NCBI RefSeq assembly: GCF_014192515.1
Contig: NZ_JACHYB010000001.1
Location: 124,001-188,000 of the forward strand
Source: Microbacter margulisiae
Lineage (GTDB): Bacteria > Bacteroidota > Bacteroidia > Bacteroidales > Paludibacteraceae
Length of the DNA: 64,000 bases
Reading direction: 5' to 3'
Of this stretch, positions 8,973 to 56,046 are shown in pieces. A program made the translations under genes and the position numbers. The notes under the pieces are model-generated. The model was given only the letters and a program-made list of their open reading frames with translations, did not search any database and was not told where the DNA came from. Every line of letters starts with the position of its first letter. Within the stretch, counting starts at the first letter, position 1.

Positions 8973-9190
8973 AAAATAATATAATTTTATTCTCCAATAC
9001 CATTAATTTTAGATACTTCGCTTTTTGATTTATTCTGTTATTTGATCCTTCAGTTATTTGATTTCTACCGTCTGTCAACTCTTTTCTACTGATTGATCTT
9101 CTTCCTTAGCTTCCTCCTATTTTATTATTCAGTTATTGGATTCCTCCCGTCTACTAGCTACTAAACTACTTGGCAGTTGTTATCTTCTTT
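8973..9190. repeat. intergenic repeat, overlapping the end of wbpP
   Basis: The gap between wbpP and tviB holds T-rich repeat words (several TTCAGTTATTTGAT variants) and, at about 9139-9190, another copy of the CTACTAGCTACTAAACTACT / TGGCAGTTGT element seen near 1512 and 1862. The copy runs into the coding region, so the TAG stop (9166-9168) and the last few codons of wbpP come from repeat sequence. No promoter with the TAnnTTTG consensus was found here for tviB. Confidence 0.65.
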
Positions 9191-13632: not shown

Positions 13633-15570
13633 TTAGGGTGTCTCAACCATTTTTTTCTGATCCAGTTGTTCATAAATGGAATTCAAACTGAGGAATTCAG
13701 GCACCAGATCTTTCATTTTTTGTACCACCTGGATAGTTTTCATCTCATACGCCAAAGCAATCAACTCTTCAATCCTTTGTGAAACTTCCTCAAACCGGAA
13801 TTCGGCAACCTGGGCTACCATTATTTTTGGATGGGTAGTAGGTTTGGTTATTTCCTGATTGTTAAGCAGCTCTTCATACAATTTTTCTCCTGGCCTCAAC
13901 CCTGTATATACAATTTCAATATCTTTTCCCGGAATGAATCCTGCCAATTGAATCATATTCCGGGCTAAATCGTCTATTTTTACCGGTTTCCCCATATCGA
14001 AAAGATAGATTTCCCCATTTTCTCCATGTACACTTGCCTGAAGAACCAATCGGCATGCTTCTGGGATAGTCATAAAATAGCGGATAATATTTTTATCGGT
14101 TACCGTTACCGGACCTCCGGCTTCAATTTGTTCCTTAAATCGGGGAATAACTGATCCGTTCGATCCCAATACATTTCCAAACCGGGTAGTGATGAATTGA
14201 GTCGTGCTTTTTTTAGGGTCAATATGTTTAGCTAACGATTGTACATAAATCTCAGCAATTCGTTTGGAGGCTCCCATCACATTACTAGGATTGACAGCTT
14301 TGTCAGTTGAGATCATCACAAACTTCTCGGCGTTGTATTTTAGGGCGCAACCAGCTACATTTTTTGTTCCGAACACATTCGTCAAAATGGCCTCAGAAGG
14401 ATGCCGTTCCATCATGGGAACATGTTTATAGGCAGCTGCATGATATATAATTTCAGGATGATATTGACGGAACAGCTTTTCCATGCATTCATTCCGTTTA
14501 ACATCACCAATGACCGGGATGATATTAATGTCCCGGCAATGATCCGACAGGTAAGTCTCTATTTCATAAAGAGGGGTTTCCGCTATGTCGAATAAAATGA
14601 TGGTTTTGGGTTCAAAGCCGGCAATCTGTCTTACAATTTCACTTCCTATCGAGCCGGCTGCTCCTGTTACCAGAATGTTTTTACCTTTAATGTCATGTTG
14701 TATATCCAACAGGTCGATTTTAATTTCTGTCCTTCCCAGTAAATCTTCAATCTGTATAGGTCGAATGGAGTGCTTGTCTTTTTTTTCTTCCGTCCATATC
14801 TTAGGCGATCGGGCTAACAAAATTTGTAAGTTAAGCAGTATGCCTGCTTGCACCAAACGATCTTTTTCTTCCAATAAATCATTCTGGGTTGAAAAGATTA
14901 ATGACGTCACTTTGTACGAATGAATGATTGATTGCAGTGAATCTTTTTTGGCAAAGAAGATAGGAAGATCCAGAATGCGTTGATTACAGGCATTGGAATC
15001 CGGAGTAATAAAACCGGTTATTTTATAGGGAGATTGACGGTTATTGTTGAGCATCTGGGCTATAGCAACACTATCAGCATCAATGCCGAACATTAATCCG
15101 GCAGAACGGTTGTTTTCATGTGACGAAGCCGTTATGTAATGGTAGATACGGAATATAATATAACGAAAGATGATTAAACTGAAAAAAGTGAAGGTGCTGA
15201 TTTTGATCAGCAGTGAAAATAAAATACCTGAAAGATGATGGGGATAGATTAGCTGCAGAAACAGGTAAAACAATAGATTGGAGATAAAAACTGCTGTAAT
15301 GATACGTCCGATTTCATGATAAGAAGAGTAGCGGATTACCCCATGGTGTGTTTTGAGAGAAATATAAGTGATCAGACATAAAAACAGATATACAAATAAG
15401 GTATAAAACGTCGGTAAAGACGAGTTCTCAAGTGCGTACGTCGTTTGCATGATCCAGAACGAAAACGCAAATGCAAAGGCAGATAGAAAAAGATCAATAC
15501 ATAAAATAATCCATCGGTTAGTATAGCGTGATATCAGTATTTTAGAAATGCGCAATTTGAAGTCATTCAT
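13633..15570 (-). CDS. wbpM: membrane-bound UDP-GlcNAc 4,6-dehydratase (WbpM/PglF/CapD family)
   Basis: A 645-residue protein with four predicted membrane helices in the first 150 residues, then a CoA-binding-like Rossmann domain and a C-terminal SDR dehydratase domain. The SDR motif is ILVTGAAGSIGSEIVRQI. The active site has the family's methionine in place of tyrosine (STDKAVNPSNVMGASKR), and RFGNVLGSNGSVIPRF follows. The reaction makes UDP-2-acetamido-2,6-dideoxy-4-ketohexose, the precursor for bacillosamine/QuiNAc4N and FucNAc. In this locus its product is the expected substrate of the PglE-like aminotransferase at 17458-20055. A promoter-like sequence lies upstream at 15720-15753. Confidence 0.9.
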   Translation of the reverse strand: MNDFKLRISKILISRYTNRWIILCIDLFLSAFAFAFSFWIMQTTYALENSSLPTFYTLFVYLFLCLITYISLKTHHGVIRYSSYHEIGRIITAVFISNLLFYLFLQLIYPHHLSGILFSLLIKISTFTFFSLIIFRYIIFRIYHYITASSHENNRSAGLMFGIDADSVAIAQMLNNNRQSPYKITGFITPDSNACNQRILDLPIFFAKKDSLQSIIHSYKVTSLIFSTQNDLLEEKDRLVQAGILLNLQILLARSPKIWTEEKKDKHSIRPIQIEDLLGRTEIKIDLLDIQHDIKGKNILVTGAAGSIGSEIVRQIAGFEPKTIILFDIAETPLYEIETYLSDHCRDINIIPVIGDVKRNECMEKLFRQYHPEIIYHAAAYKHVPMMERHPSEAILTNVFGTKNVAGCALKYNAEKFVMISTDKAVNPSNVMGASKRIAEIYVQSLAKHIDPKKSTTQFITTRFGNVLGSNGSVIPRFKEQIEAGGPVTVTDKNIIRYFMTIPEACRLVLQASVHGENGEIYLFDMGKPVKIDDLARNMIQLAGFIPGKDIEIVYTGLRPGEKLYEELLNNQEITKPTTHPKIMVAQVAEFRFEEVSQRIEELIALAYEMKTIQVVQKMKDLVPEFLSLNSIYEQLDQKKMVETP

Positions 15571-17457: not shown

Positions 17458-17862
17458 TCACGCCTGAAGTTTCTCAAACACCTCAACCACTCTATTTATA
17501 TCTTCATCGGATAATACCGGACTGGAAGGAAGACACAACCCTTTTTCAAAAAGCTTTTCAGAAGTACCATCTCCATAAAACGGAGCATCAGCAAACACGG
17601 GTTGCAAATGCATCGGTTTCCAAAGGGGACGGGTCTCAATATTGGCTACCTCCATGGCTAAGCGAAGATCTTCACGTGTGAAACCCGCCTTATCAGCATC
17701 TACCTGAACACACGTAAGCCAGAAATTCGATTGATACTTTTCGGATGGATTTTCAGGCAATGTGACACCACGTATCCCCGATAACCGATCTCGATAAATG
17801 GCATGAATCTCTCTCCTGCGCGCGATATGACTATCTAAAACTGTCATCTGTCCCCGTCCGAT

Positions 17863-19313
17863 CAATGTCATTAAGTTAAGGCCATCAGAAAGTATTTTTA
17901 TTGTTTTTCAGCAACTTCGGTTTACCTCTTTTTCTGTATTTGTCAGTATCTCTTTCAAATCTTCTATTTGGTCGTATTGGTATCGTGTGTTTTTTAAACA
18001 ACGCTTTGAGTTCTGATACTATTTCGTTCATATCCTTTTCCGAGAAAAACAGTAAAATTATCCTGTCTTTGAGAAAGCCGTATGATAAATTGCTATTGAC
18101 TTTGTATTGATATTGATATTTGGTTGATTCTTTGGCTAATTCATCATTTATGTCTCCAACGATTAAACTCTGAACGTTTGACACAAATAAGGCTGCATAA
18201 AAATCCTGCAATATACAATGCTCTGAATAGCCTGAAAAATGTTCTATTTTTATCTTGTTCTTCAATTCATCATAAAACGTTTCTACTCCCCACCTTAAAA
18301 AATACAGTTCTTTAAATAAAGAGACTGGATATTTTTTTGAATCAAACAAAGAAGTTATCAGTATTTCTATTTCTCCATCAGGTAGTTCAACCCGAACCAA
18401 CCGAACTTCTTTGAATGCATTCTTCGAATACGGTTTATCCGACAGTTTTATGTTCTTTCCAGGTTGCATTCGAGCAATAGCTGACTGTAGTCCACTCTGG
18501 TAAAATTCCCGGGTGAGGTTACTAAAATCAGCTTTAACCCGGATGAGAAAATCTACTCCTTTTTCAAAATGCTCATAAATCAAATTGAAAGAAGGATAAC
18601 CTCTATCGTAAATAATCAAGTCGTTAGCTTTTGCAAAAACCAAATGATTCAACGCCAAAACACTCTCTCCAGTTGACAGTGGAGCTAAAACACCATCCAG
18701 GACAAACCGATTCAAAACATCGTACAATACCGATATTCTTGCCTGTACCACTCCTGTTTCAGATTGGTTTTTAGTCCTGCCATAAATGCTTTCCAACTCC
18801 TGAGTATCGGGCAAAACCAATCTTGACCCATCAATAGCCAACAACCTAAATCCATTCCAGAGCTTTATCGATGCATCATTGTCTGTATAAAACTCCTCAA
18901 TCAAACTATCTGAAAGTGATTTAAATACTTCAGGTTTTATTTTTTTTCGATACTGTACAAAAGCACTTTTTGTAATACCATTTATCGAAGCACCAGGCAT
19001 ATTGTACTTTATGAAACTAATAAAGTTAGCTATCTCAACCGAAAGACTTTTAGTGAGAAAATTTATCATAAAGACAATGGTGCTGTGAAATGATTGCTTC
19101 CTGTTTCTTGTAAAATCTGTCTCTAACATTCTGAACTTTAAAACTATTTCCTGCGAAAATACTCTTTTCCTTATCAGTTCCAATATACTTTCCGGCGTTT
19201 TTTTTCATGATAATAACTATTTGATTCTGAAACAAATATACAAAAAATAACTCATATACACAAGCGTTTATTGTTGATAATCAGATAATTATATCGCTAA
19301 CTTAATGACATTG
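17863..19313 (-). mobile_element. IS4-family insertion sequence, 1451 bp, inside pglE
   Basis: Perfect 16-bp terminal inverted repeats CAATGTCATTAAGTTA (17863-17878) and their complement (19298-19313) bound the element. The 10-bp target duplication CCCGTCCGAT flanks it at 17853-17862 and 19314-19323. One transposase gene fills it. The ends share CAATGTC with the second IS4-type element at 24857-26337, so the two belong to the same subgroup. Intact ends and identical target copies show a recent insertion. Confidence 0.95.
17885..19183 (-). CDS. IS4-family transposase
   Basis: A 432-residue DDE transposase. The first catalytic aspartate is in LLAIDGSRLVLPD and the second in LIIYDRGYPSFNLI. The glutamate lies in the IS4 signature Y-(2)-R-(3)-E-(6)-K (YFLRWGVETFYDELK), and the C-terminus is basic. 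The start used here is TTG at 19181-19183; the frame stays open a little further upstream without an ATG (a TGA lies at the start of KKTPESI), so the true start is uncertain. It is transcribed in the same direction as the interrupted aminotransferase. It is about 30% similar by eye to the transposase at 25039-26313, sharing the DRGYPSF and RWGVE motifs. Confidence 0.9.
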   Translation of the reverse strand: MELIRKRVFSQEIVLKFRMLETDFTRNRKQSFHSTIVFMINFLTKSLSVEIANFISFIKYNMPGASINGITKSAFVQYRKKIKPEVFKSLSDSLIEEFYTDNDASIKLWNGFRLLAIDGSRLVLPDTQELESIYGRTKNQSETGVVQARISVLYDVLNRFVLDGVLAPLSTGESVLALNHLVFAKANDLIIYDRGYPSFNLIYEHFEKGVDFLIRVKADFSNLTREFYQSGLQSAIARMQPGKNIKLSDKPYSKNAFKEVRLVRVELPDGEIEILITSLFDSKKYPVSLFKELYFLRWGVETFYDELKNKIKIEHFSGYSEHCILQDFYAALFVSNVQSLIVGDINDELAKESTKYQYQYKVNSNLSYGFLKDRIILLFFSEKDMNEIVSELKALFKKHTIPIRPNRRFERDTDKYRKRGKPKLLKNNKNTF

Positions 19314-20047
19314 CCCGTCCGATGCCGGCGCAAATATTACTCATCCGGTAATTGTATCCTATTTCGGAATGCTGGTAGTGTGGTGCTGCATCCCGGGCTT
19401 GAGTGGCATAAAATTTCGTTTTTTGAGCTTCTTGCTTTGTAGAGCAGACTAACGCTCCTCCTCCGGAGGTAGTAATAATTTTATTGCCGTTAAAGGATAA
19501 ACAGGCAAATTCACCAAAAGTGCCACATTTTTGGCCGTTGAATGTTGACCCCAAGGCTTCAGCAGCATCTTCCAGCACCGGAATTCCGTAATGTGTAGCA
19601 ATTTCCATGATGGTATCCATCTGTGCCGGCATGCCATAAAGATGAACCGGAATAATGGCTTTGGGTTTCTTGCCTGATTGCTTGATCCGCTCTTCTATGG
19701 CTTGTTGCAGAAAATAGGGACTGATATTCCATGTTTCCGGTTCACTATCCACAAAAACCGGTTTTGCACCTAAATAGGCAATAGGATTGGCCGAGGCCGA
19801 AAAGGTAAACGATTGACAAATGACTTCATCACCTGCACTTACCCCCAGTTGCAACAATCCCAAATGAATAGCGGCGGTTCCTGAACTTAGAGCGACTATA
19901 TGTTTATTTTCACCAAGATATTCTGTCAGGTTTTGCTCAAAAGCATCCACATTGGGCCCTAATGGAACAACCCAGTTGGTATCAAAAGCTTCCTGTATGT
20001 ATTTTTGTTCTTCGCCGCTCATATGAGCAAGCGAGAGCCATATTTTT

Positions 20048-20665
20048 TTATGCATTGTTTGTTCTGTCATCTATGGGTACAATTATGGGTCCATGTCCTG
20101 CACAAACCGTTGTGTCGGATTGGATGGTATGTAGGATTCTTGTCAATGATTTTTCAGCCTCTTGTTTATTGCTTTTGGGGAAGGTGGCTACTACTTTCAA
20201 TCCTGGAATATAAGCATCCCCTGTAAAAAGATGCTGATTAACCTGATATGTGAGACAACTCCAGTCGTGCCCTTTTGTCTCCATGACATGAAGCGTATGA
20301 TTGGGAAATAATTCCACAACATCATGCTCTTTCAGGATAGCAACATCATTTGATTGATAAATAAATTCTGTGTGATGATAGCGGGAAAAATTATATTTTG
20401 GTTCATACAGGCTTACCGCTCCATTTTCGGAAGTGAACACATGAATATGTGGGTATTGATCTTTTAATGTATTTAGTCCGTAGATGTGATCAAAATGGGT
20501 ATGCGTCAACAGAACACCTGCGACTGTTTTGTTGTTCTCCTTTAACCATGCTTCCACCTGATAGCTGTCCCCGCAATCAATAAGCCAACAATGGCGTGAG
20601 TCGTGATCGAAAAGAATATAGGTATTTGATTGATATACCGAATTGATAATCTGATGCACCTCCAT
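20048..20665 (-). CDS. metallo-beta-lactamase-fold hydrolase (glyoxalase II-like)
   Basis: A 205-residue protein with the full metal-binding set: THTHFDH (HxHxDH), GHDWSCL, FTGDAYIPG and a final CAGHGP. This fold hydrolyses thioesters and related bonds. ATG 20665 is chosen because it follows the SDR stop by one base; an upstream in-frame ATG at 20695 would overlap the SDR gene. Its place directly after an ACP-KAS III-SDR set and before pglE suggests that it acts on an acyl-thioester made by that cassette, for example as a thioesterase. That role is an inference. Confidence 0.8.
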   Translation of the reverse strand: MEVHQIINSVYQSNTYILFDHDSRHCWLIDCGDSYQVEAWLKENNKTVAGVLLTHTHFDHIYGLNTLKDQYPHIHVFTSENGAVSLYEPKYNFSRYHHTEFIYQSNDVAILKEHDVVELFPNHTLHVMETKGHDWSCLTYQVNQHLFTGDAYIPGLKVVATFPKSNKQEAEKSLTRILHTIQSDTTVCAGHGPIIVPIDDRTNNA

Positions 20666-20666
20666 G

Positions 20667-21431
20667 TTATTTCGCCGTATAGCCTCCATCAACAAATAAG
20701 TTGGTTCCGGTTACCCATTTTGAAGCATCGGAAAGTAGATAAATACAGGCATTTGCTACATCCTCCGTTGTTCCGAGCCCTAGCAGGTGTTGTTTTTCCA
20801 ATGCGGCTCGTTTTTCAGGATCAGCCATGTGGGGCAGGTTTTCATTGATGGGTGTAACAATAGCTCCTGGCGAAATGGCATTTACCCGGATATGTTTGGG
20901 CGCCAGTTCACAGGCCAGAGAACGCACTCCGGCAAGTAATGCTCCTTTGGTCATTCCGTAAAGCGATTTCCCGGTTTCACCTACCGATCCCATGATGGAC
21001 GAAAGAAACACGATACTTCCACCTTCTTTTGCAAAATGTCCCATTTTACATACCTCTTTAGTGAGATGATAGGCGGCAAAGACATTGGTCTGAAAAAATG
21101 TTTCCATCATTTCAACTGTAACCAATTTGAGAGGTTGGGTAGTCGAAATCCCGGCACAGTGAATTACGCCGTCTATCCTTCCTTTTTGTTCCACCATTTT
21201 CTCAACGGCAACGGTTACATCTGCATATTGTGCCAGATCTAGTGGAATAAGCAAATGACGGAGTTTATTTTCCATGCAGGATAATGTTTCCTGTAAACGA
21301 CCTTCATTACGCCCGGTTAGCAACACGTTTGCCCCCATCTTCGCACAACTGATGGCACACTGCCTACCTATTCCAGAAGAGGCTCCTGTGATCAGGATAT
21401 TTTTTCCGGTTAAATCAAAAGGATTGCTCAT
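20667..21431 (-). CDS. short-chain dehydrogenase, FabG-like (hydroxyacyl cassette 1)
   Basis: A 254-residue classical SDR. The NAD(P) motif is ILITGASSGIGRQCAIS, followed by NVLLTGRNEGRL with a basic residue that favours NADPH. Catalytic serine is in IVFLSSIMGSVG and YxxxK in SLYGMTKGALLAG; the family C-terminus is SKWVTGTNLFVDGGYT. It overlaps the KAS III gene by four bases (ATGA) and is therefore translationally coupled. The neighbours make it the probable reductase of 3-ketoacyl-ACP to 3-hydroxyacyl-ACP. A sugar ketoreductase is possible but less likely in this setting. Confidence 0.85.
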   Translation of the reverse strand: MSNPFDLTGKNILITGASSGIGRQCAISCAKMGANVLLTGRNEGRLQETLSCMENKLRHLLIPLDLAQYADVTVAVEKMVEQKGRIDGVIHCAGISTTQPLKLVTVEMMETFFQTNVFAAYHLTKEVCKMGHFAKEGGSIVFLSSIMGSVGETGKSLYGMTKGALLAGVRSLACELAPKHIRVNAISPGAIVTPINENLPHMADPEKRAALEKQHLLGLGTTEDVANACIYLLSDASKWVTGTNLFVDGGYTAK

Positions 21432-22486
21432 ACTTCCACAATGTCACTGACCTTACATTGATTGAAACGAATGACTGCCGAAGCCCATGTCATGCCCACA
21501 CCGAAAGCGGATAATAATATGGTTTTGTCTTCCTGTAACTGATGCTGTAATTCACTGACGATTGTCAACGGTACCGATACTGACGATGTATTCCCATATT
21601 TTTCAATGGTAGAGGGAATTTTTGTGGCGTCCAGTTTCAGCTTTTTGGCCAGATAGGTGTTGATAAAGGTATTGGCCTGATGAAAAACAATATAATCCAA
21701 TTGATCTTTATCTGCACCTGAATAGCTTAGAATATGCTGAATATCGGATGGAATTTCCCGTATGACAAAGTTAAAGACATCCCCTCCTTTCATATATCCC
21801 TGTTCCTCGCTCCGGATATTTCCATACTCATCCACCACTTTTTCTTTTATCGTTTCCGCAGAACTGGGCTTGCGGTAACCGCCGGCTTCAATCTTGATCA
21901 AATCTTCCCGTGAGCCATCTGAATTCAGTGAAAAATAGCTTTTCCCGAACCTTTCATTGCGTTCGATCAGGGTAGCCGAACCAGCATCGCCAAATATAAA
22001 GGCGGTCCGTCGATCCTTAGGGGAATATACTTTTGAGCGGGTTTCGCCGTCCAGTAGTAAAGCCTTACGCAGGCCATGCTGTTGCATAAGTGCATACACC
22101 GTACTCAATCCGTAAAGATAGGCCGAACATCCCAGATTCATATCAAATGCCAGTGTCGATTGCGGAAGTTTCAGGCGTTCCTGCAAAAGAATAGATGTTG
22201 CAGGCATTCGGTAATCAGGCGTCTGCGAAACAAAAATCAATACATCTATTTCAGAGCGGTCTGTTTGATTGTCGGCAAACAGCTTTTCCGCTGCTGCGAA
22301 GCATAAATCGGACGAACAGGTTTTTTCGTCTGCGAAACGCCGCTGAAACACCCCTACCTTATCGACCACTTCCTTCACCTGATCGGCAGGAAAATAATGT
22401 GTATATTCATAATTATTGATAACGGTATGGGGCACAGCCGCTGCCATGGCCGAAATTCCAATGCCGTCAAATTGTAATAGAGCCAT
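21428..22486 (-). CDS. 3-oxoacyl-ACP synthase III-like enzyme (KAS III, cassette 1)
   Basis: A 352-residue thiolase-fold condensing enzyme. The catalytic triad is visible: C120 in FDMNLGCSAYLYGL, H269 in DYIVFHQANTFI and N299 in YGNTSSVSVPLT. FabH-type enzymes condense an acyl-CoA starter with malonyl-ACP to give a 3-ketoacyl-ACP. The protein is longer than housekeeping FabH (about 320) and has the HQAN variant shared with the copies at 26356 and 28142, so it belongs to a specialised branch. It lies between its ACP (22489-22710) and the SDR. The product is inferred to be a short ketoacyl chain for sugar acylation. Confidence 0.85.
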   Translation of the reverse strand: MALLQFDGIGISAMAAAVPHTVINNYEYTHYFPADQVKEVVDKVGVFQRRFADEKTCSSDLCFAAAEKLFADNQTDRSEIDVLIFVSQTPDYRMPATSILLQERLKLPQSTLAFDMNLGCSAYLYGLSTVYALMQQHGLRKALLLDGETRSKVYSPKDRRTAFIFGDAGSATLIERNERFGKSYFSLNSDGSREDLIKIEAGGYRKPSSAETIKEKVVDEYGNIRSEEQGYMKGGDVFNFVIREIPSDIQHILSYSGADKDQLDYIVFHQANTFINTYLAKKLKLDATKIPSTIEKYGNTSSVSVPLTIVSELQHQLQEDKTILLSAFGVGMTWASAVIRFNQCKVSDIVEV

Positions 22487-22488
22487 AA

Positions 22489-22710
22489 CTATTGCTGAGT
22501 TGCTGCGTTATATAAGTCACGAACTGTTCTAAGTTTTTTGAAATCAGCTTCTTCTATTTGAAAGTCGTAGATTTCGTCGAGCATTGCGATCACGGATAGA
22601 TAGGCTAATGAACCCCATTCCGGATATTCTCTGAATTGATCATCCATAAAAATTTCCCTATCCTCAATTTCAAAAACCTCTTTCAGGTCAGTCAAGAATT
22701 TATTTTCCAT
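22489..22710 (-). CDS. acyl carrier protein (cassette 1)
   Basis: A 73-residue acidic helical protein of ACP size. The phosphopantetheine serine is S34 in PEWGSLAYLSVIAMLDEIY, in a WGSL context instead of the canonical DSL. The second ACP (29197-29427) has the matching EWSSL. A dedicated ACP next to KAS III and SDR indicates a pathway separate from membrane lipid synthesis. It ends with a genuine TAG stop two bases before the KAS III start. Loading with malonate would need FabD and an AcpS-type transferase from elsewhere in the genome. Confidence 0.8.
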   Translation of the reverse strand: MENKFLTDLKEVFEIEDREIFMDDQFREYPEWGSLAYLSVIAMLDEIYDFQIEEADFKKLRTVRDLYNAATQQ

Positions 22711-22722
22711 AATAAGCTTGGT

Positions 22723-23367
22723 TTATATGTCTTTTATTATTTTCGCCGGATTTCCAAAATACGTAAACCCATCTTTCGTATTTCGCATCACTACACTATT
22801 AACTCCTATGCGTACCTCGTTTCCAATGTTTAGTCCTTGTAAAACGGTTGACCGGACACCAAAAAAATTACTATCCCCGATTGCGGTTTCTCCTGAAATA
22901 CGTACATCGGGTTGTAGCATATTGAAGTTTTTCAAAGATACATCATGACCTAATGAAACACATCCGTTCAAAAAGTTAAAATTTTCCATTGAGACATCAC
23001 AACTGATCCTGCCCCCAAATCCGATATAATTACCGATTCCAATAGAAAAGGAATCACGATCGAAAAATAATACATTCGGGGCAATGATATTGGGAAAATA
23101 AATATTGGAATTGTTTATTTTACCGGTTAGCAAGGCAATCGTAGAAGGTGATGCGATAGCAAGGATAACTGCTAGTCTTTTATCATGGCTATTTAATGTA
23201 TCCATATTGCCCAGTACCTTGCCGTATCGGTTTGCTGTCCCTGCTTTCACTCCATCATCAAAATAACCGATCAGATGCCATGTGGAATTAATCTTATTTA
23301 TAGCATTAAGTACACAGGCTATCTCCCGGCCAAATCCTCCAAATCCATAAATTGCAATATCTTGCAT
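22723..23367 (-). CDS. pglD: PglD/NeuD-like sugar N-acyltransferase (left-handed beta helix)
   Basis: A 214-residue protein with the PglD layout: an N-terminal Rossmann-like domain (DIAIYGFGGFGREIACVL, GYFDDG) that binds the UDP-sugar, then hexapeptide repeats (IGIGNYIGFGGRISCDVS, NGCVSLGHDVSLKN) and a C-terminal cap. The expected catalytic histidine is in SLGHDV. PglD acetylates the 4-amino group of UDP-QuiNAc4N. It lies beside pglC and directly upstream of an ACP gene, so an alternative donor, a hydroxyacyl-ACP in place of acetyl-CoA, is plausible. That donor is an inference. It would act after pglE, which is interrupted here. Confidence 0.78.
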   Translation of the reverse strand: MQDIAIYGFGGFGREIACVLNAINKINSTWHLIGYFDDGVKAGTANRYGKVLGNMDTLNSHDKRLAVILAIASPSTIALLTGKINNSNIYFPNIIAPNVLFFDRDSFSIGIGNYIGFGGRISCDVSMENFNFLNGCVSLGHDVSLKNFNMLQPDVRISGETAIGDSNFFGVRSTVLQGLNIGNEVRIGVNSVVMRNTKDGFTYFGNPAKIIKDI

Positions 23368-23377
23368 ATAATCCTTT

Positions 23378-23995
23378 TTATTCGTTTCCCGTAAATGGTT
23401 TCATTGTTACGGCTGTCTCTGCATCGATCCCTTCCCGTCGAATCACTTTTTGAATTGTCATTCCTATGATTTTGATATCCAGTAGGAAAGAGATATGATC
23501 CACATACCATACATCATACTCGAATTTTTTCTGCCAACTGATGGCATTCCGTCCGTTTACCTGTGCCCATCCGGTTATACCGGGTTTCACATTATGACGC
23601 CTTGCCTGTTGTTGGTTGTACAGGGGAAGATACTCAACCAGCAAAGGTCGTGGACCTACCAGGCTCATATCTCCCTTTATCACATTGATCAATTGCGGCA
23701 ACTCATCCAATGATGTTGATCGTACAAATTTACCGATTTTAGTGATTCGTTCCTTATCAGGAAGTAATTTTCCAGATGCATCCCGTTCATCTGTCATAGT
23801 TTTGAATTTCATTGCCTTAAAAATCTTCCCGTTTTTCCCGGGTCGATTTTGGATGAAAAAGACACCGGCTTTTTTATTGCTGAAATGCAAAAGGACAATG
23901 AGGAGCATCAGTAATGGAGACAGAATAGCTAAAGCAATAAAAACAACGGCAATATCAAAACTAGGTTTAATGATGGTAGAATACATTTGTGTCAA
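23378..23995 (-). CDS. pglC: PglC-like initiating phosphoglycosyl transferase
   Basis: A 205-residue bacterial sugar transferase with a single N-terminal re-entrant hydrophobic segment (FDIAVVFIALAILSPLLMLL). The catalytic aspartate-glutamate pair is in RSTSLDELPQLINVIKGDMS, followed by LVGPRPLLVEYLPLY and KPGITGWAQVNGRN. The compact monotopic form transfers a phospho-sugar such as diNAcBac or QuiNAc4N derivatives onto undecaprenyl phosphate and so begins the repeat unit. Together with wbpM, pglE and pglD it defines the first sugar. Seven to eleven bases separate it from its neighbours, indicating an operon. Confidence 0.87.
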   Translation of the reverse strand: MTQMYSTIIKPSFDIAVVFIALAILSPLLMLLIVLLHFSNKKAGVFFIQNRPGKNGKIFKAMKFKTMTDERDASGKLLPDKERITKIGKFVRSTSLDELPQLINVIKGDMSLVGPRPLLVEYLPLYNQQQARRHNVKPGITGWAQVNGRNAISWQKKFEYDVWYVDHISFLLDIKIIGMTIQKVIRREGIDAETAVTMKPFTGNE

Positions 23996-24001
23996 ACACC
24001 T

Positions 24002-24829
24002 TTATAATTGAACGATGGGGACCGCTGCCCAGTCTATCGTACGATTTGCAGCTTCAACAGACATAAATTCAAAATCATGAATAAGCCGGGATAATTTCAT
24101 AAAGGCATGCTGTATGCCGTAATAATTTTTGAAATAACGCAGATTCAACATTCGCTTTTGTTCTGCATCGAAATCCCGTATATGGCAATAGCTCATTACA
24201 TAAGGCTCTTTTAGCATAAATGACCGAATGAATGCATAAGGCAACAGGCGTAAATACCCTCCTCCTGAATAAGCAATCTGTTTCCCCAAAACGGAATGGG
24301 TGCTGATGGGAAATTCTTTGATAGCTTTATTATTGTATGATATAATACACGGACTATTTTCCTGAAAACCGGGAAATCCTCCGAAATCTCTGTTGGTAGG
24401 AAATATGGAACAATCATATTCTATCCCCACTTCTTTTAGAATAGGAAGAGCCCATTGCGTGGAACGTCCAATAGAAAAAGCGGGAGCCCGGTATCCCTGC
24501 ACCTTTTTTCCTATAATATTTTCCAGTGCATCAATAGCATTTTTTGTGTCTCTGTAGAATAATTCGGGTGTAAGGGCTGTCACCCATTGATGCTGGTCTG
24601 AATGACATCCGATTTCATGCCCTTGGCGTGCAATTTTTTTGATTACGTCAGGATACTCTTTAGCTACCATTCCCAGACAAAAGAAAGTGGCGTTTAGCTG
24701 TTGTTGCGACAGCATATCAAGCACCTCGTTCAGGTAACGATCTAAGAGGGGCAAATAATAATCTTTTCCTCCTTTTGGGTACAACTGGTAGATGTACCAC
24801 TCTTCAAGATCAAAGGTTAGGATGTTCAT
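24002..24829 (-). CDS. polysaccharide deacetylase (NodB domain)
   Basis: A 275-residue protein beginning with MNILTFDLEEWY, where the aspartate and glutamate are part of the NodB active site. HEIGCHSDQHQW supplies the two metal-binding histidines and GYRAPAFSIG is motif 3. This matches the DUF3473-like deacetylases found with exopolysaccharide operons. It removes acetyl groups from N- or O-acetylated sugars. No signal peptide is evident, so it may act on the lipid-linked intermediate in the cytoplasm. The IS4-type element at 24857-26337 begins 27 bases before its start codon and probably cuts it and the following genes from upstream transcription. Confidence 0.82.
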   Translation of the reverse strand: MNILTFDLEEWYIYQLYPKGGKDYYLPLLDRYLNEVLDMLSQQQLNATFFCLGMVAKEYPDVIKKIARQGHEIGCHSDQHQWVTALTPELFYRDTKNAIDALENIIGKKVQGYRAPAFSIGRSTQWALPILKEVGIEYDCSIFPTNRDFGGFPGFQENSPCIISYNNKAIKEFPISTHSVLGKQIAYSGGGYLRLLPYAFIRSFMLKEPYVMSYCHIRDFDAEQKRMLNLRYFKNYYGIQHAFMKLSRLIHDFEFMSVEAANRTIDWAAVPIVQL

Positions 24830-24856: not shown

Positions 24857-26337
24857 CAATGTCGTTTAATTAAGAATACCCATCTTAGAGTCTGACAGGA
24901 AATGAATTACCTCAAAGAAAAAGTTGTTTGTATTTTGTAGTGTGAGAATTTCTTCGTATTTTTAAACCATATATTAATGGGGGTAACCCAAGTACTAATC
25001 AAAAAGCGGATTACCGTGGAAATGTATCTAAAAACATAGTGTATGAACTTGATAACGAAGAGTTTAGGGGACGCTCACGAGGTGTCCTTAAAAAAGTATT
25101 TACACGAGATAGAGTACTGACATTCAAAAATTTAATTGTATTGATCATAACATTTAAGTCATCCATACAACGAGAATTAGACGGTTTTTTCAAAGCGGTT
25201 AATCAATCGGATTTTAATATTCGAGCCGTAACAAAAGGTGCTTTTTCGACAGCTCGTTCCAAATTGGATCCATGGGCTTTTGAACGACTGAATGAAGTTG
25301 CTGTGAATACTTTTTATGATGAAGCGCCCTATTATTTATGGGAAGAGCATCGGGTGTTAGCTGTCGATGGAACGCGTTTGGTGCTGCCGAATCACCCAAG
25401 TGTGGTAGAGGAATTTGGGGTGCATGAATTTGGTCCCAAAGCAGATAGCCCACGTTCATTGGCTTTGGGATCGGTGCTGTATGATGTTTTGAACAAGGTT
25501 ACTATTGAAGGGCAATTAGCACCTTATTCAAGCAGCGAAAACAGTTTATTAATGAAGCATTTATCCAAAGTCAAAAAAGGAGATTTATTGCTACTTGATC
25601 GGGGCTATCCAAGTTTCTGGTTGTTGTTTTTACTTCAGGCCGAGGGGATTGAATTTTGTGTTCGCTTGAAAGAGGATTGGTGGTTAAAGGTAAAAGATTT
25701 TACCGAAAGTGAAGAAAAAGAAAGGATCGTAACTTTTACCTTGCCAAAAAAAGACAGAAAGAAGTTGGCTGAATATCCCCACATGCAAGATACAACGATC
25801 ACCTGCCGTTTAGTAAAAATAGGTTTGCCGGATGGAAGCAAAGAGATATTGTGTACCTCTTTGATAGATGCAGAAAAATATAAATACGAAGATTTTGATG
25901 AATTGTATCATCTTCGCTGGGGAGTAGAAGAAGCATATAAGTTGCTAAAAAGCAGAATAGAATTAGAAGATTTCTCAGGTAAAACAGCCATAGCGGTAAG
26001 GCAAGATTTTCATGCAAAAATCTTTTTAATGAGTCTTTGTGCTATTTACGCGCATCCCATTGACGAAAAAGTAAGAGAAGAATACAAGGCTGATGAACAA
26101 AGAAAATACAATCAACAGATTAATCAAACAAATGCTTTATCAATGACTCAAAATATTCTGATACCACTACTGCTTAAACAACAATTTGAAAAAGCAATGC
26201 AGGCATTCGATTCAGTGGTTGAAAAAACCAGAGAAGTCATCCGTCCGGGACGTAGTAACGAACGAAAGAAAAAGCCCAAAAAACTTTACTCCATGAATTA
26301 CAAAAGATTATAGCTTCACCTTAATTAAACGACATTG
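24857..26337 (+). mobile_element. IS4-family insertion sequence, 1481 bp, intergenic
   Basis: Perfect 18-bp terminal inverted repeats CAATGTCGTTTAATTAAG (24857-24874) and their complement (26320-26337) bound the element. The 10-bp target duplication AATTGGAAAC is at 24847-24856 and 26338-26347. It lies between the second ACP/KAS cassette and the deacetylase gene, with its transposase facing against the operon. The end sequences and target length match the element in pglE, but the transposases differ, so these are two related ISs. Confidence 0.95.
25039..26313 (+). CDS. IS4-family transposase
   Basis: A 424-residue DDE transposase. Aspartates are in RVLAVDGTRLVLPN and LLLDRGYPSFWLL; the Y-R-E-K signature is in YHLRWGVEEAYKLLKSRIE. 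The C-terminus is lysine- and arginine-rich. The GTG at 25039 is the start used. The frame remains open further upstream to the left end of the element without an ATG, and an out-of-frame ATG at 24977 ends early, so the start is uncertain or a non-standard codon is used. The gene is complete and the element may be active. Confidence 0.9.
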   Translation: MYELDNEEFRGRSRGVLKKVFTRDRVLTFKNLIVLIITFKSSIQRELDGFFKAVNQSDFNIRAVTKGAFSTARSKLDPWAFERLNEVAVNTFYDEAPYYLWEEHRVLAVDGTRLVLPNHPSVVEEFGVHEFGPKADSPRSLALGSVLYDVLNKVTIEGQLAPYSSSENSLLMKHLSKVKKGDLLLLDRGYPSFWLLFLLQAEGIEFCVRLKEDWWLKVKDFTESEEKERIVTFTLPKKDRKKLAEYPHMQDTTITCRLVKIGLPDGSKEILCTSLIDAEKYKYEDFDELYHLRWGVEEAYKLLKSRIELEDFSGKTAIAVRQDFHAKIFLMSLCAIYAHPIDEKVREEYKADEQRKYNQQINQTNALSMTQNILIPLLLKQQFEKAMQAFDSVVEKTREVIRPGRSNERKKKPKKLYSMNYKRL

Positions 26338-26355: not shown

Positions 26356-27360
26356 TCAAAGAAATTTTAGTATGGTTCCTCCCCACGAATAGCCTACTCC
26401 AAACCCTGCTAATAATACATTATGGTTTGATTGAATGGTGCTATCATGCATTGCTTCCTTTAGAGCAATGGGTATTGTGGAGGATACGGTATTCCCAACT
26501 GATTCAAGAAAATAATAAAATTTATCCTCAGGTATTTGGAGCTTTTTGCGTAAGTAGCTTAACATGTACTTATTTGCCTGATGAAAGATGAATTGATCAA
26601 TTTGTTCCTGTTTCAGATGATTAGCCACTAAGGTATTTTGAATAAGGTTCGGCACTACATCTAATGTGAAATTAAAAATTTCTGTGCCATCCATGTAAAG
26701 ATAATCAGACGATTTGGGGTTATTCTTTTCATCAAATACCAAATTTCCTATTGAGTCAGGATGTCTCATTCCTCTGCTTTTTACAATAAGCCGGTCATAT
26801 CCTCCTCCATCAGTTCCCAATGAAAAGTTTTGTATGGCAGCTATTCCTTCACTTCCAATTAATGTGGCAGAAGCTCCATCTCCGAAAATAGTACGGTTTG
26901 CTTTATCCATCGGATGTAAAAATTTGGAATAAGTCTCTGCTGTCAGTAAAAGAACGTTATGAGCTATGCTTGCTGAAATTAACCCTTTGGCTAATGAAAG
27001 CCCATAAATATAGCCGCTACATCCCAAATTAAAATCGAGTGCCCCGGCATGTTGAGGAATACCCAGGCGTTGTTGTAAAATGCATGCTGAAGTGGGTAAA
27101 AAATAGTCCGGGCTTTGTGTGCAAAATAAGATAAAATCTATTTCAGAAGGTTGGATATTATGTTCTGTAAACAGATTTGTGGCTGCTTTGTAGGCCATAT
27201 CGGCAGATGTCTCATCCTTTGTTGCTATGTGCCGTGTACTGATTCCTATTTTTGAAGCCACTTTTTCTACTGTCCATTCCGGAAATTCCTGAATCAGTTG
27301 TTCGTTAGTAAGTTTATTTTCTGGCAAATAATATGATATGTGCTTAATATAAGCTTGCAT
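26356..27360 (-). CDS. 3-oxoacyl-ACP synthase III-like enzyme (KAS III, cassette 2, second copy)
   Basis: A 334-residue condensing enzyme with C114 (DFNLGCSGYIYGL), H260 (QFIFHQANKYM) and N290 (VGNTVSSTIPIA). It lies downstream of the SDR in an ACP-KAS III-SDR-KAS III set. A second KAS III beside one SDR suggests that one enzyme starts the chain and the other extends it. The gene ends just inside the target-site edge of the IS4-type element (stop at 26356, duplication at 26338-26347), so the insertion spared its coding sequence. Confidence 0.85.
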   Translation of the reverse strand: MQAYIKHISYYLPENKLTNEQLIQEFPEWTVEKVASKIGISTRHIATKDETSADMAYKAATNLFTEHNIQPSEIDFILFCTQSPDYFLPTSACILQQRLGIPQHAGALDFNLGCSGYIYGLSLAKGLISASIAHNVLLLTAETYSKFLHPMDKANRTIFGDGASATLIGSEGIAAIQNFSLGTDGGGYDRLIVKSRGMRHPDSIGNLVFDEKNNPKSSDYLYMDGTEIFNFTLDVVPNLIQNTLVANHLKQEQIDQFIFHQANKYMLSYLRKKLQIPEDKFYYFLESVGNTVSSTIPIALKEAMHDSTIQSNHNVLLAGFGVGYSWGGTILKFL

Positions 27361-27384
27361 GCTATCGTTTTTTGATCATTATAA

Positions 27385-28134
27385 TTATAATAGGGTATAT
27401 CCTCCGTCAATTAGGAGGTTGGAGCCTGTTACCCATTGACTGGCATCAGACAATAAATAAATTACAGCATAGGCCACTTCTTCAGGTTTTCCATAGCGTT
27501 TTAATGGATATTTCTTTGTGTCTTCTTTCAATTGATCCTCGGAAATTACTCCCTCATCAAATATGGATGTTTGAATCATACCCGGGCATACTGTGTTGAC
27601 ACGAATAGAGCGCGTTGCCATTTCTATTGCCATTGTTTTGGCTATTCCATTAATTGCACCTTTGGATGCAGAATAGATGCCTCCGGAAATTGCAGAGCAA
27701 TAAACACCGGATATGGAAGAAATAAAGACAATGGAAGCCCCTTTGTTTAATTTTTTGTTTTTATAAAGTGTCTGGGTAATTAACGTGGGTGATACAAAAT
27801 TCACCTGCATGATAGCTGATAAATCATTGGCATTAATAAACTGAATAGGAAGAGATTTTGTGAATCCGGCACAATGAACCACTCCGTCCAGATTTGGCAA
27901 TGTGTCTATCAGGTGATCTATTTCTGTCTGTTTTGACAAATCAGCTAAAATAAAGCGATGATTTTTGCCGGATAATTGAGCAAACGTCTGTTGCAGCCGG
28001 TTCTGGTTACGACCACTAATAATAAGCTTCGCTCCTAGTTTAGCGCATTCGATAGCAATTGCCCGACCAATTCCGGACGAGGCGCCTGTTACCAGAACAG
28101 TTTTTTCTTCAAGCGAGAAAGGGTTGTAACTCAT
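27385..28134 (-). CDS. short-chain dehydrogenase, FabG-like (cassette 2)
   Basis: A 249-residue SDR: VLVTGASSGIGRAIAIEC, KLIISGRNQNRL, IVFISSISGVY, GIYSASKGAINGIA with catalytic YxxxK, and ASQWVTGSNLLIDGGYTLL. It resembles the cassette-1 SDR in length and motifs. It is flanked by two KAS III genes and follows an ACP, so reduction of 3-ketoacyl-ACP is the likely job. One reductase would have to serve two rounds if both KAS enzymes act in series. Confidence 0.85.
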   Translation of the reverse strand: MSYNPFSLEEKTVLVTGASSGIGRAIAIECAKLGAKLIISGRNQNRLQQTFAQLSGKNHRFILADLSKQTEIDHLIDTLPNLDGVVHCAGFTKSLPIQFINANDLSAIMQVNFVSPTLITQTLYKNKKLNKGASIVFISSISGVYCSAISGGIYSASKGAINGIAKTMAIEMATRSIRVNTVCPGMIQTSIFDEGVISEDQLKEDTKKYPLKRYGKPEEVAYAVIYLLSDASQWVTGSNLLIDGGYTLL

Positions 28135-28141
28135 AGCGTAT

Positions 28142-29197
28142 TTAAACTTCTATAAGATCAGAAATAATTAGATTATCCGTTTCAAAATATACACTTCCCC
28201 AGGAAAGTCCAACTCCAAATCCGCAGGCAATCAGTCGGTTTCTATTATGGTTTAAAGCTTCACGGCATTGTGTTACCATTGTTAGTGGAATGGTAGCCGA
28301 ACTGGTATTCCCAAAATCCTTGAGAGAGTAGAGAACTTTTTCAACAGGAAGTTTGAGCTTTTTTCGAATCTTTTCATTCATAAATAAATTAGCCTGATGA
28401 AAAACGAAATAATCAATTTTTCCCATATCAATATCAAACTTATCAGCCAATTTATGGATCGTTTCCGGGGCCTTATTAATTCCAAACGAAAAAACATCCA
28501 TGCCATTTAAGGCAATATTTAGAGAATTTCTAATAATGTCTTCTTCAATACATTCTTCTTTTAATGAATTGACTGAGTAAGGATTCCGATAGCCTCCTTC
28601 TGGTATAATAATTGCTTCGTACCCACTCCCATCAGTAGCCATATGAAACTGGAATCCTTTATCTCCTTCGTGGTATTCAATAGCAGTACATGTCCCGGCA
28701 TCACCAAATAAAGGCCATGTACTTTTATCTTCAACTGAACACGATTTTAGGACTGTGTCACCTGTAAGCAACAACCCTTTTTTCATATTGCCATTTTGGA
28801 TTAAGGCTCCAATGGTGCTTAACCCGTAAATCCATCCGGAACATCCTAACGATATATCCATTGAGTAACATTCTTCGGATAATCCCAATCTATGCTGTAA
28901 AATGCAAGATGTAGCCGGAAGAATATAATCAGGCGTTTGAGTCACAAAAATGAGGCAATCGATCTCCTCTTTGTTCCATCCCAAATCTGCAATCAATTTT
29001 TCAGCAGCATAATAACAGAGATCAGATGTGGTGACATTGTCTCCAGCAATTCGTCTGCGCTCAACACCCGTTGAAGCCATAAATTTTGCGGCATCCTCCC
29101 CCTGAAACAGTTTTAGATTATTATTTTCTTCGACTGTCGAAGGTACACATACGGATAGACCATGGATTTTGACATTAGGAACAGACAAGAAAGCCAT
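28142..29197 (-). CDS. 3-oxoacyl-ACP synthase III-like enzyme (KAS III, cassette 2, first copy)
   Basis: A 351-residue enzyme with C119 (DISLGCSGWIYGL), H267 (DYFVFHQANLFM) and N297 (FGNTSSATIPLT). It is closer in length and C-terminal sequence (SDLIEV) to the cassette-1 KAS III (SDIVEV) than to the second copy at 26356, which points to duplication between cassettes. Its start codon shares one base with the ACP stop (TAATG), so the two are translationally coupled. Condensation with malonyl on that ACP is the expected reaction. Confidence 0.85.
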   Translation of the reverse strand: MAFLSVPNVKIHGLSVCVPSTVEENNNLKLFQGEDAAKFMASTGVERRRIAGDNVTTSDLCYYAAEKLIADLGWNKEEIDCLIFVTQTPDYILPATSCILQHRLGLSEECYSMDISLGCSGWIYGLSTIGALIQNGNMKKGLLLTGDTVLKSCSVEDKSTWPLFGDAGTCTAIEYHEGDKGFQFHMATDGSGYEAIIIPEGGYRNPYSVNSLKEECIEEDIIRNSLNIALNGMDVFSFGINKAPETIHKLADKFDIDMGKIDYFVFHQANLFMNEKIRKKLKLPVEKVLYSLKDFGNTSSATIPLTMVTQCREALNHNRNRLIACGFGVGLSWGSVYFETDNLIISDLIEV

Positions 29198-29427
29198 TAT
29201 AATCTTGATTTAACGATATTGTACAAATCTTCTACTGTTTGTGATTGACGTATATCATCTCCTTTCAGTTTTACCTGATATGTTTCATCAGCCATAGCTA
29301 TTACCGAAAGAGCCATCAAAGATGACCATTCGTCCAATTCTTTAAATTTTGTCGTTGGTGTAAAAACCGATGCATCGGTATCATCAAACTGTGCAGCAAA
29401 CGTTTGAACGAAATTTTGAATTTCCAT
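29197..29427 (-). CDS. acyl carrier protein (cassette 2)
   Basis: A 76-residue acidic protein with ACP helices and the prosthetic serine S36 in KELDEWSSLMALSVIAMADE. The context EWSSL parallels EWGSL of the first ACP. It is the first gene of ACP-KAS III-SDR-KAS III and overlaps the next gene by one base. It lies 35 bases downstream of the GNAT-like gene, which may use the acyl-ACP as donor. Confidence 0.8.
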   Translation of the reverse strand: MEIQNFVQTFAAQFDDTDASVFTPTTKFKELDEWSSLMALSVIAMADETYQVKLKGDDIRQSQTVEDLYNIVKSRL

Positions 29428-29462: not shown

Positions 29463-30449
29463 CTATCTGGCATCGAAATTCAACAAACCGAAATCCCAGT
29501 TTGTTGAATCTGACAATATATGTATTAAATCTGTATGTTTTTCATCTAACAGATTATAAGTCAATGGGAGTTGTTGTGGTTCAAATTTCTTAGGGAGTTT
29601 GAAAAATACATACTGCTTTATATTTAGAGTTCCGATAAACATAATGATATCCGGTTTGTCAGTTTGAATGATATGATTGACTAGCGATGTCAAAGCTTTG
29701 TTTGTTCTACTGCCATTATTTCTAAAGTCCAATATGTAGGCTGTTCTCAACCCTTTTTCTTCCATTATCCGGTAGTATCCTATATTTTCTTTTGAATCTC
29801 TGAAACAATTGATGTTCTTTTTTTTAAACCGTTGCTTTTCAAAATTATCCGAATACTCAATTTTTATTTTTGTATATTCGGATACGATAGGTTTAGTACT
29901 TGATACAAATTTAGCTAAAAAGAGATAAAACCGCAATAGAGGAAAATAGAAAATGTCGATACTTTTTAATAATGATTTTCCTGCAAGGTTTGAAATTGAA
30001 ACGGGTAATACGTAATATGGCAAATCAGCTACATGTTTGGATCCAATAAATTTCACTGCCAACATAAACGAATTCTTATTCGGAACGCCATATAATATTT
30101 TGATATCAAATTTCTTACATTCGTCCATTAATTCATTTAGCATATCTACATACAAAAATGCTTCAGTGCGATATGCTTTTCTTACATATGTTCCCCCGCT
30201 TAATCCGAATAGCATACGTTCTCCTTGAACAATATACCAATATGGGAATAGTGTGGTTTGAGCGATAATGCGGTTCTCATTGTTTCGTGCAATGGCATGA
30301 TACGAGTAACCCAAACAGGAAGAGGTATAATATGCTTTGAATTCATTTACGCTCTTTTTTAGATTAAACGATTCATTAAACCCAAATACAATATCTTCCC
30401 AGTCTGTCTGCGTTAGGTCTGTACTTTTTATGACTGTAATCGTATACAT
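29463..30449 (-). CDS. GNAT-superfamily acyltransferase-like protein
   Basis: A 328-residue protein. The N-terminal half has features of a GNAT fold: NENRIIAQTTLFPYW (strand), LFGLSGGTYVRKAYRTEAF (acyl-CoA pyrophosphate loop region) and LYGVPNKNSF. The C-terminal half resembles a second GNAT-like lobe and has no clear motif. Proteins of this kind occur in Bacteroidota polysaccharide loci. Directly upstream of an ACP cassette, it is a reasonable candidate for transferring the finished acyl chain to an amino sugar. That substrate is inferred from position only. Confidence 0.6.
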   Translation of the reverse strand: MYTITVIKSTDLTQTDWEDIVFGFNESFNLKKSVNEFKAYYTSSCLGYSYHAIARNNENRIIAQTTLFPYWYIVQGERMLFGLSGGTYVRKAYRTEAFLYVDMLNELMDECKKFDIKILYGVPNKNSFMLAVKFIGSKHVADLPYYVLPVSISNLAGKSLLKSIDIFYFPLLRFYLFLAKFVSSTKPIVSEYTKIKIEYSDNFEKQRFKKKNINCFRDSKENIGYYRIMEEKGLRTAYILDFRNNGSRTNKALTSLVNHIIQTDKPDIIMFIGTLNIKQYVFFKLPKKFEPQQLPLTYNLLDEKHTDLIHILSDSTNWDFGLLNFDAR

Positions 30450-30515: not shown

Positions 30516-31649
30516 TTATTCCACAAATTGATTGGCAAGCGAAGCGGTAACGGTCAGCGCATAAGACGTGGATTTCTTTGCATATTGTTCTATTCTCTCC
30601 GGATTATGTTTGCACAAACGAATGAAATGTGCTATTTCGTTAATTTCGTCTTGCTCAAAACATTTTCCTACACCATATTCATTTACTAAGCGATATAATT
30701 CTGAATCTTTCCCTGTAATGCAAAGTAATGCTTTTCCTAATTTAAGGAGGTTATACGTTTTGCTGGGTACACATACCCGTCCCGCTTCCTTTGGTGTTGC
30801 AATGACAGCCATATCAGCAGCGCTTAAGGAATGAGGCAACTGGTTTGCATCCTGATAGGGGAGGAACCGGAAAAGACTTTCCAATTGCAATTCATTTACC
30901 CGGTTTATCAGAGCTGTTTTTCCCCATCCTTCTCCTATAAATAAAAAGAGAAGATTGGATTCATCCCGTAGTTGGTCGGCTACCTCCACAAGGGCTTCCA
31001 AACCCTGCCCTTTGCCGATATTGCCGGAATACATGACAACAAATTGATTGACAAGATGTTCGTTTTGAATAAATTGATTTTCTGCTTTCTGAATGATTGT
31101 GTCGAAAGCGTTACTACTCCATACTGGAACTACGGTTATTTTAGTTGGTGGACAATAGGTAGCAATAGTTTGTGCCATGCCGGGAGTGATCGTAAAAACC
31201 CGGTGTGCTTTTGCATAAAATTGGATAGTACTTTGTGCCCACCAACGGTACAAAATTGATTTTTCGGTAATAAACCCTCCTAATACAGCTCCATCAGGAT
31301 ACACATCATATACCAATGCTGAATAGTGATGTTTCAAAAATGGCGATAAAAAAACAAGCGTAGGTGGATTCGACACGAAAAAGATTTCATAGGTTCGGAA
31401 TTTGAATAGTAATAACAGAAAAACCTGTAGCGTGGCTATTCCCCAGGATAACATTCGTTTAATGGTGGAGCTGCGATGGTATGAAATGATGTTGGTTACT
31501 TTTATCCGGTTATCCAGTGGTATTTTGATGGGATTAATTCGACCTGCTATTAACACGACTTCATCAAATTTCCCTGATTGCACAAAAGCATTTGCAATGT
31601 CTATCATGAGATAGCCGGAACTTTGATTGATAAGGACAATTTTCTTCAT
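30516..31649 (-). CDS. glycosyltransferase family 4 (GT-B)
   Basis: A 377-residue GT-B enzyme resembling WbuB/WcaI-type proteins. It opens with KKIVLINQSSGYLMIDIANAF and has an internal hydrophobic patch (ATLQVFLLLLFKF), often a membrane-association helix. The C-terminal nucleotide-sugar domain holds VMYSGNIGKGQGLEALVEV and VCVPSKTYNLLKLGKALLCI, where the PSK(T/I)Y motif is typical of this branch. The sugar donor cannot be read from the sequence. Its start overlaps the deacetylase-like gene upstream by four bases. Confidence 0.82.
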   Translation of the reverse strand: MKKIVLINQSSGYLMIDIANAFVQSGKFDEVVLIAGRINPIKIPLDNRIKVTNIISYHRSSTIKRMLSWGIATLQVFLLLLFKFRTYEIFFVSNPPTLVFLSPFLKHHYSALVYDVYPDGAVLGGFITEKSILYRWWAQSTIQFYAKAHRVFTITPGMAQTIATYCPPTKITVVPVWSSNAFDTIIQKAENQFIQNEHLVNQFVVMYSGNIGKGQGLEALVEVADQLRDESNLLFLFIGEGWGKTALINRVNELQLESLFRFLPYQDANQLPHSLSAADMAVIATPKEAGRVCVPSKTYNLLKLGKALLCITGKDSELYRLVNEYGVGKCFEQDEINEIAHFIRLCKHNPERIEQYAKKSTSYALTVTASLANQFVE

Positions 31650-53923: not shown

Positions 53924-53928
53924 ATGTT

Positions 53929-54618: not shown

Positions 54619-54619
54619 A

Positions 54620-55609: not shown

Positions 55610-55620
55610 AATGTCATATT

Positions 55621-56043: not shown

Positions 56044-56046
56044 GAC

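Follow-up and report, generated by a model that had tools for sequence, protein, structure and literature searches.

The window analyzed here, a stretch of 64,000 nucleotides from the genome of Microbacter margulisiae (Bacteroidota; contig NZ_JACHYB010000001.1, positions 124,001 to 188,000), carries a compact minus-strand cassette (29427-26356) of four intact open reading frames. These encode, in order, an acyl carrier protein (ACP), a condensing enzyme of the ketoacyl-ACP synthase III (KAS III) type, a FabG-like short-chain dehydrogenase/reductase (SDR) and a second KAS III-type enzyme, here named ACP1, KASa, SDR1, and KASb. The genes are nearly gapless, with intergenic spacings of -1, 7, and 24 bp, and a further reading frame of 328 codons, GNATp, precedes ACP1 at a distance of 35 bp.

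The KAS III (PF08545/PF08541), SDR (PF13561/PF00106) and phosphopantetheine-binding (PF00550) domains all exceed their Pfam cut-offs, and KASa and KASb each combine both KAS III domains with the Cys-His-Asn triad. The attachment serine of ACP1 (S36 in the motif EWSSL) does not vary among the 20 aligned sequences, which include two from the window. Neither a dehydratase nor an enoyl reductase occurs among the four genes. Elsewhere, the genome encodes FabD and one phosphopantetheinyl transferase. The cassette is very probably a dedicated acyl synthase serving a surface polysaccharide. A preliminary description of this DNA had proposed just such a reducing acyl-ACP cassette, from four tightly packed genes with all catalytic residues and no dehydratase or enoyl reductase; the reading frames lie at its coordinates, their spacing and residues agree with it, and excerpts of PMC6519341 show that equal gene content and reasoning have been published for Flavobacterium psychrophilum.

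Table 1. Coordinates of the cassette, its neighbors, and the insertion elements in the window.
Feature	Position	Strand	Remarks
ACP1	29197..29427	-	dedicated acyl carrier protein, 76 aa, attachment site Ser36
KASa	28142..29197	-	KAS III-type condensing enzyme, clade A1
SDR1	27385..28134	-	FabG-like 3-oxoacyl reductase
KASb	26356..27360	-	KAS III-type condensing enzyme, clade B
GNATp	29463..30449	-	328 aa, predicted tandem-GNAT N-acyltransferase; likely cassette transferase
CE4 polysaccharide deacetylase with DUF3473	24002..24829	-	travels with GNATp; CE4 domain present
PglC-type initiating sugar-phosphate transferase	23378..23995	-	polyprenyl glycosylphosphotransferase family; name PglC is our own
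PglD/NeuD-type sugar N-acyltransferase	22723..23367	-	part of second module
ACP2	22489..22710	-	second-module acyl carrier protein; family matches weak, profile match clear
KASc	21428..22486	-	KAS III-type, clade C, second module
SDR2	20667..21431	-	reductase, second module
Metallo-beta-lactamase-fold hydrolase	20048..20695	-	second module; possibly a thioesterase
PglE/LegC-type aminotransferase, N-terminal part	19297..20070	-	interrupted
PglE/LegC-type aminotransferase, C-terminal part	17458..17871	-	interrupted gene
IS4-family element	17863..19313		transposase 17885-19183 (-); 16-bp perfect inverted ends, 10-bp target duplication; within aminotransferase gene
IS4-family element	24857..26337		transposase 25039-26313 (+); 18-bp perfect inverted ends, 10-bp target duplication; between KASb and deacetylase
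PglF-like membrane-bound 4,6-dehydratase-type protein	13633..15570	-	every family score under cut-off; name is our own

Condensing enzymes and related cassettes

KASa and KASb are only 35% identical to each other. In an 86-row tree of KAS sequences, KASa falls in clade A (23 rows; SH-aLRT support 97), KASb in clade B (40 rows; 90), and the window's third such enzyme, KASc, in clade C (16 rows; 95), with the catalytic triad present in every member of all three. A larger FastTree of the survey described below keeps these clades, the best single clade holding 29 of 30 A1, 75 of 75 A2, 80 of 81 B, and 20 of 23 C rows. These enzymes share the domains and the triad of the FabH/KAS III family but form clades of their own and score under the FabH cut-off (TIGR00747, 292.1; KASb 256.1, KASa 210.6, KASc 209.1). 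KASb passes the NCBI subfamily NF006829 (beta-ketoacyl-ACP synthase 3, cut-off 249) with 280.9, and KASa narrowly fails it with 241.5. Arg249 of E. coli FabH, an ACP contact, is replaced here. The residue at FabH position 142 depends on the clade (Ser/Thr, Tyr, or Arg), a difference that may reflect different substrates.

Relatives of KASa are abundant, with at least 7,846 at E 1e-60 among the best 8,000 candidates scored. An ACP profile, counting the M. margulisiae genome each time, matches 29 of 395 genomes sampled across the phylum, 88 of 393 in the order, and 77 of 395 in the class; in the genus of F. psychrophilum it matches 11 of 160. We surveyed 128 loci, 28 from the phylum search and 100 from the order and class searches. 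The latter two contributed loci up to E 1e-20, excluding weaker places and loci collected earlier; five class-search places at E <=1e-20 (two in genome G935, one each in G1068, G1027, and G1107) were left out. Loci gathered earlier through KAS searches, which are richer in KASb, also lie outside this set. Neighbors were labeled by their best blastp match to the window proteins (E 1e-3; 1e-4 in one comparison), so the counts are rough.

Most often, the ACP has a single KAS III within 4.5 kb, as at 70 of 128 loci (A2 38, B 15, C 10, A1 5, outlier 2), an upper bound given contig ends and the 4.5-kb limit, beyond which lies, for example, the second KASa-type gene of locus L148. Two KAS III of different clades accompany the ACP at 47 loci (A2+B 33, A1+B 7, A1+C 7), two of one clade at 4, and none at 7; an SDR lies near the ACP at 102. 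Adding the loci from the KAS searches brings the set to 155 ACP genes (A2 40, A2+B 38, B 26, C 13, A1 10, A1+C 10, A1+B 8, none 8, outlier 2). Two KAS III enzymes around one ACP are thus an ordinary state, and one is likewise ordinary. The window's gene order, ACP, KASa, SDR, KASb, recurs in seven of the eight A1+B loci of the larger set, without an inserted gene in L162 and L190, and again in four of the ten loci taken from the genus of F. psychrophilum (L265-L268).

The idea that KASa is an obligate second-round extender was discarded. It had drawn on a hint in the first 28-locus survey, where clade A was the only KAS III in 1 of 10 cases and clades B and C in 15 of 25 (Fisher 0.0098, rising to 0.12 after collapsing by genus); the hint was lost in the 128-locus sample, where clade A is frequently the sole KAS III.

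Three further observations concern the relatives. A widespread unit of KASb, ACP, KASa (A2), and SDR occurs in L070-L074 and in many of L206-L239; the neighbors of the former are, by eye, family-2 glycosyltransferases, GNATs or TPR membrane proteins, not PglCDEF. In L068 a MaoC-like dehydratase (14685-15149) adjoins an ACP/SDR/KASb cassette, and some relatives may accordingly make unsaturated chains. The reading frame L110:7118-7777, between KASb and PglD, resembles a phosphopantetheinyl transferase by eye (from a sequence motif) and has no Pfam match.

The transferase, the deacetylase, and a possible pathway

GNATp is predicted to adopt, over its whole chain, the fold of the tandem-GNAT acyltransferases typified by N-myristoyltransferase (NMT) and Eis. 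A conserved C-terminal N-F/Y-D motif ends all ten aligned GNATp sequences, and the alignment places it against the chain ends of NMT. The likeness is one of predicted fold: identity is approximately 12%, no NMT family match is found in Pfam or NCBIfam at E 0.001, no PDB sequence matches at E 1, and GNATp, unlike these enzymes, is encoded in a bacterial glycan locus. A CE4 polysaccharide deacetylase accompanies GNATp in seven of eight genomes, and the acyl suppliers next to this pair vary, being either ACP/KAS/SDR sets or AMP-ligases. On the strength of its predicted fold and its pairing with the deacetylase, GNATp is probably the transferase of the cassette. That the deacetylase supplies the amine is an evenly balanced proposition. 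The proteins nearest TviB (7686-8972; 563.6 bits, cut-off 592) and TviC (9166-10185; 354, cut-off 760) are encoded in the same locus, and N-acetylated sugars for the deacetylase are therefore plausible.

What can be shown is that the genes are intact and recur together and that GNATp has a predicted acyltransferase fold; what the enzymes act on, in which order, to what chain length, and on which acceptor is inferred as follows. ACP1 would be modified by the genome's phosphopantetheinyl transferase and loaded with malonate by the housekeeping FabD. One KAS III would condense acetyl-CoA with malonyl-ACP, and SDR1 would reduce the ketone. The other KAS III would extend the resulting 3-hydroxybutyryl-ACP once, and a second reduction by SDR1 would give 3,5-dihydroxyhexanoyl-ACP; a C6 product falls slightly short of an even chance, and 3-hydroxybutyryl-ACP would be a close second. 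The CE4 deacetylase would expose the amine of an N-acetylamino sugar in the growing unit, to which GNATp, not PglD, would move the acyl group from ACP1. Taken as a whole, this reading, namely a reducing type II acyl synthase, transfer by GNATp, and an amine exposed by the CE4 enzyme, all acting on one surface-polysaccharide sugar, is the one that we tentatively favor.

Several observations weigh against it. KASa-type and KASb-type enzymes are each found as the sole KAS III near an ACP; each may consequently initiate chains, and a second round is not required. The preliminary description had taken the two KAS III enzymes to fit two chain lengths, an argument that is weakened by this. GNATp lies just under its sole Pfam cut-off (24.3 vs 25), and three of its relatives have no Pfam match at all. 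One of the eight GNATp loci (L257, genome G760) has no deacetylase within the 15 kb examined, three (L254, L256, and L257) have no KAS cassette in the examined stretch around GNATp, and two of the seven genomes that pair GNATp with the deacetylase (G633 and G776) belong to one genus, making the seven partly non-independent. The best NCBIfam match of the deacetylase is an XrtA-system deacetylase, under the cut-off, and members of its family occur in exopolysaccharide loci that have no such cassette. Finally, downstream transcription may be interrupted by the IS4 element now lying between KASb and the deacetylase.

The strongest alternative, unlikely in our estimate, is a single round of synthesis giving 3-hydroxybutyryl or a branched relative, with the two KAS III enzymes redundant or differing in starter. 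The prevalence of loci with one KAS III speaks for it, as do the 3-hydroxybutyryl amides that recur among the O-antigens reviewed in PMC3210612. Set against these points, the A1+B set keeps its gene order in distant families, and the residue at position 142 differs by clade.

In the favored reading, an N-acetyl sugar would first lose its acetyl group and then receive a new acyl group from the ACP, a sequence that we infer and that resembles the logic of Nod-factor synthesis. There, NodB is a deacetylase and the NodE-type ketosynthase is KAS II-like. The two systems share a deacetylase, an N-acyltransferase, a special ACP, a special ketosynthase, and a FabG-like reductase (NodB, NodA, NodF, NodE, and NodG, respectively; the roles of the last four in N-acylation are treated in excerpts of PMC9048898), whereas the window has KAS III in place of the NodE-type enzyme and places the set in a Bacteroidota polysaccharide locus. 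GNATp has no NodA family match in Pfam or NCBIfam at E 0.001, and the window deacetylase, at 52.4 bits, is far from the NodB cut-off of 240 (TIGR04243). About as tentatively, we propose a Bacteroidota deacetylate-and-reacylate module for surface polysaccharides, in which a CE4 enzyme frees an amine and a tandem-GNAT of NMT-like fold acylates it anew. The acyl supplier would be interchangeable: a polyketide-like set of ACP, KAS III, and SDR (here yielding a C6 dihydroxy group) or an AMP-ligase set. If true, a Nod-factor-like logic would have been reached with unrelated parts.

Flavobacterium psychrophilum and the second module

MacLean reportedly described 3,5-dihydroxyhexanoyl on Qui2NAc4N in F. 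psychrophilum in 2001. The consulted sections of PMC6519341 show by NMR this group on Qui2NAc4N of the O-polysaccharide, and those of PMC3210612 also give the structure; the preliminary description had remarked that some Flavobacterium O-polysaccharides carry a dihydroxyhexanoyl-type amide on this residue. The Discussion of PMC6519341 assigns its synthesis to the ketoacyl synthases wfpC and wfpE, the ACP wfpD, and the reductase wfpF, with the PglD homologue wfpG as acyl transferase; no enzyme test of this pathway was met in the sections seen, which also link the genes that make acyl groups of this kind to differences between serotypes. A 3,5-dihydroxyhexanoyl pathway from two KAS enzymes, an ACP, and a reductase is therefore already published as a proposal. 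Like the window cassette, the wfpC-F genes (of the O-polysaccharide R1 group) combine a pair of distinct KAS with a single ACP and a single reductase, side by side within a polysaccharide locus. Their predicted transferase is wfpG, a neighbor to go by gene-name order, whereas the window cassette adjoins GNATp and PglD abuts ACP2. The wfp locus also has pglE and pglF, where the window has a PglF-like gene and a PglE-like gene split by IS4.

L106-L109 belong to the genus of F. psychrophilum, labeled g185 in our survey and recognized as such because the contig place C11:113919-114131 is common to genomes G253 (g185) and G1201. L274, of the same genus, reads PglC, KASb, ACP, a KASc-like KAS, an extra gene (Rieske-like by eye), SDR, PglD, and PglE, followed by what look by eye like rhamnose genes; without the extra gene this is the order suggested by the names wfpB-G. 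An in-cassette gene of 360-362 codons lies in L107-L109 and L265-L268 and is a Rieske oxygenase by Pfam in both cases tested (L107 and L109), which points to possible further tailoring of the acyl group. A similar gene is visible by eye in L271 and L274.

The second module (its ACP/KAS III/SDR part at 22710-20667) begins 3.6 kb beyond the cassette and comprises, nearly without gaps, genes for PglC, PglD, ACP2, KASc, SDR2, a metallo-hydrolase, and the PglE/LegC-type aminotransferase. It was overlooked in the preliminary description, together with both IS4 elements and a third KAS III/SDR/GNAT set. The two IS4 transposases are 34% identical to each other, and all but approximately 35 bp of the 1,526-bp gap between KASb and the deacetylase is IS4. 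We assign PglD to the second module (ACP2, KASc, and SDR2), which would likewise feed it with a 3-hydroxyacyl group; the amino sugar of this module is in doubt because its aminotransferase gene is split. The preliminary description had offered either PglD or the GNAT at 29463 for the transfer; the GNAT fits better, and the place of PglD beside the other module speaks against it.

It had also proposed that two rounds give 3,5-dihydroxyhexanoyl and that PglD places this group on the 4-amino group of UDP-Qui2NAc4N. The gene content does match wfpC-F plus wfpG, pglE, and pglF of F. psychrophilum, where the structure is known (excerpts of PMC6519341), and L110 and L274 hold two KAS, ACP, SDR, PglC, PglD, PglE, and PglF-like genes in one run, in L274 in the order implied by the wfp names and with the apparent rhamnose genes. 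The Qui2NAc4N route is nonetheless doubtful here: PglD is part of the second module, and an IS4 element interrupts the aminotransferase gene of that module; the next best genome match to the N-terminal piece is 38% identical. The mapping to wfpC-F, moreover, is one of gene content and, for L274, gene order, not of sequence identity. The draft genome of F. psychrophilum DSM 3660, which we take to be the same strain as NCIMB 1947T, shows no cassette; its KAS matches reach only 31-33%, and the ACP profile finds nothing there at 1e-12. NCIMB 1947T is typed as type 0 in the part of PMC5601056 seen. Overall, we regard the PglD route as rather improbable. Least credible of all is that the cassette, though built as described, does not work in this strain, IS4 having cut the transcription unit and the neighboring aminotransferase gene: both elements keep perfect inverted ends and target duplications, but the nearer one lies downstream of ACP1, KASa, SDR1, KASb, and GNATp, whose reading frames are intact.

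Compared with the F. psychrophilum set, the window cassette is accompanied by an unusual transfer enzyme and a deacetylase, which suggest the swap of one acyl group for another. The window offers a concrete second type of cassette, in which the transferase differs and the free amine has a candidate source. Our literature search found no paper in which the enzymes of such a dedicated ACP/KAS III cassette from a polysaccharide locus were tested. Six purified proteins would allow a direct test of what loads the acyl group and what receives it.

Other features of the window

The third acyl set (55609-53375) consists of a KAS III (54620-55609), an SDR (53929-54618), and a GNAT (53375-53923). It lacks an ACP of the kind described here, since ACP1 and ACP2 are the sole matches of the ACP profile in the M. 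margulisiae genome. Three tandem genes, FdtA-like by eye, adjoin it (region 53375-56860); the two of them that were scanned have no NCBIfam match. A DegT aminotransferase with a long N-terminal extension lies nearby at 51275-52804. The reading frame at 31646-32785 (379 aa) has no Pfam match; its N-terminus resembles, by eye, that of 41579-42712 (377 aa), and both contain IVVIESDDWGS.

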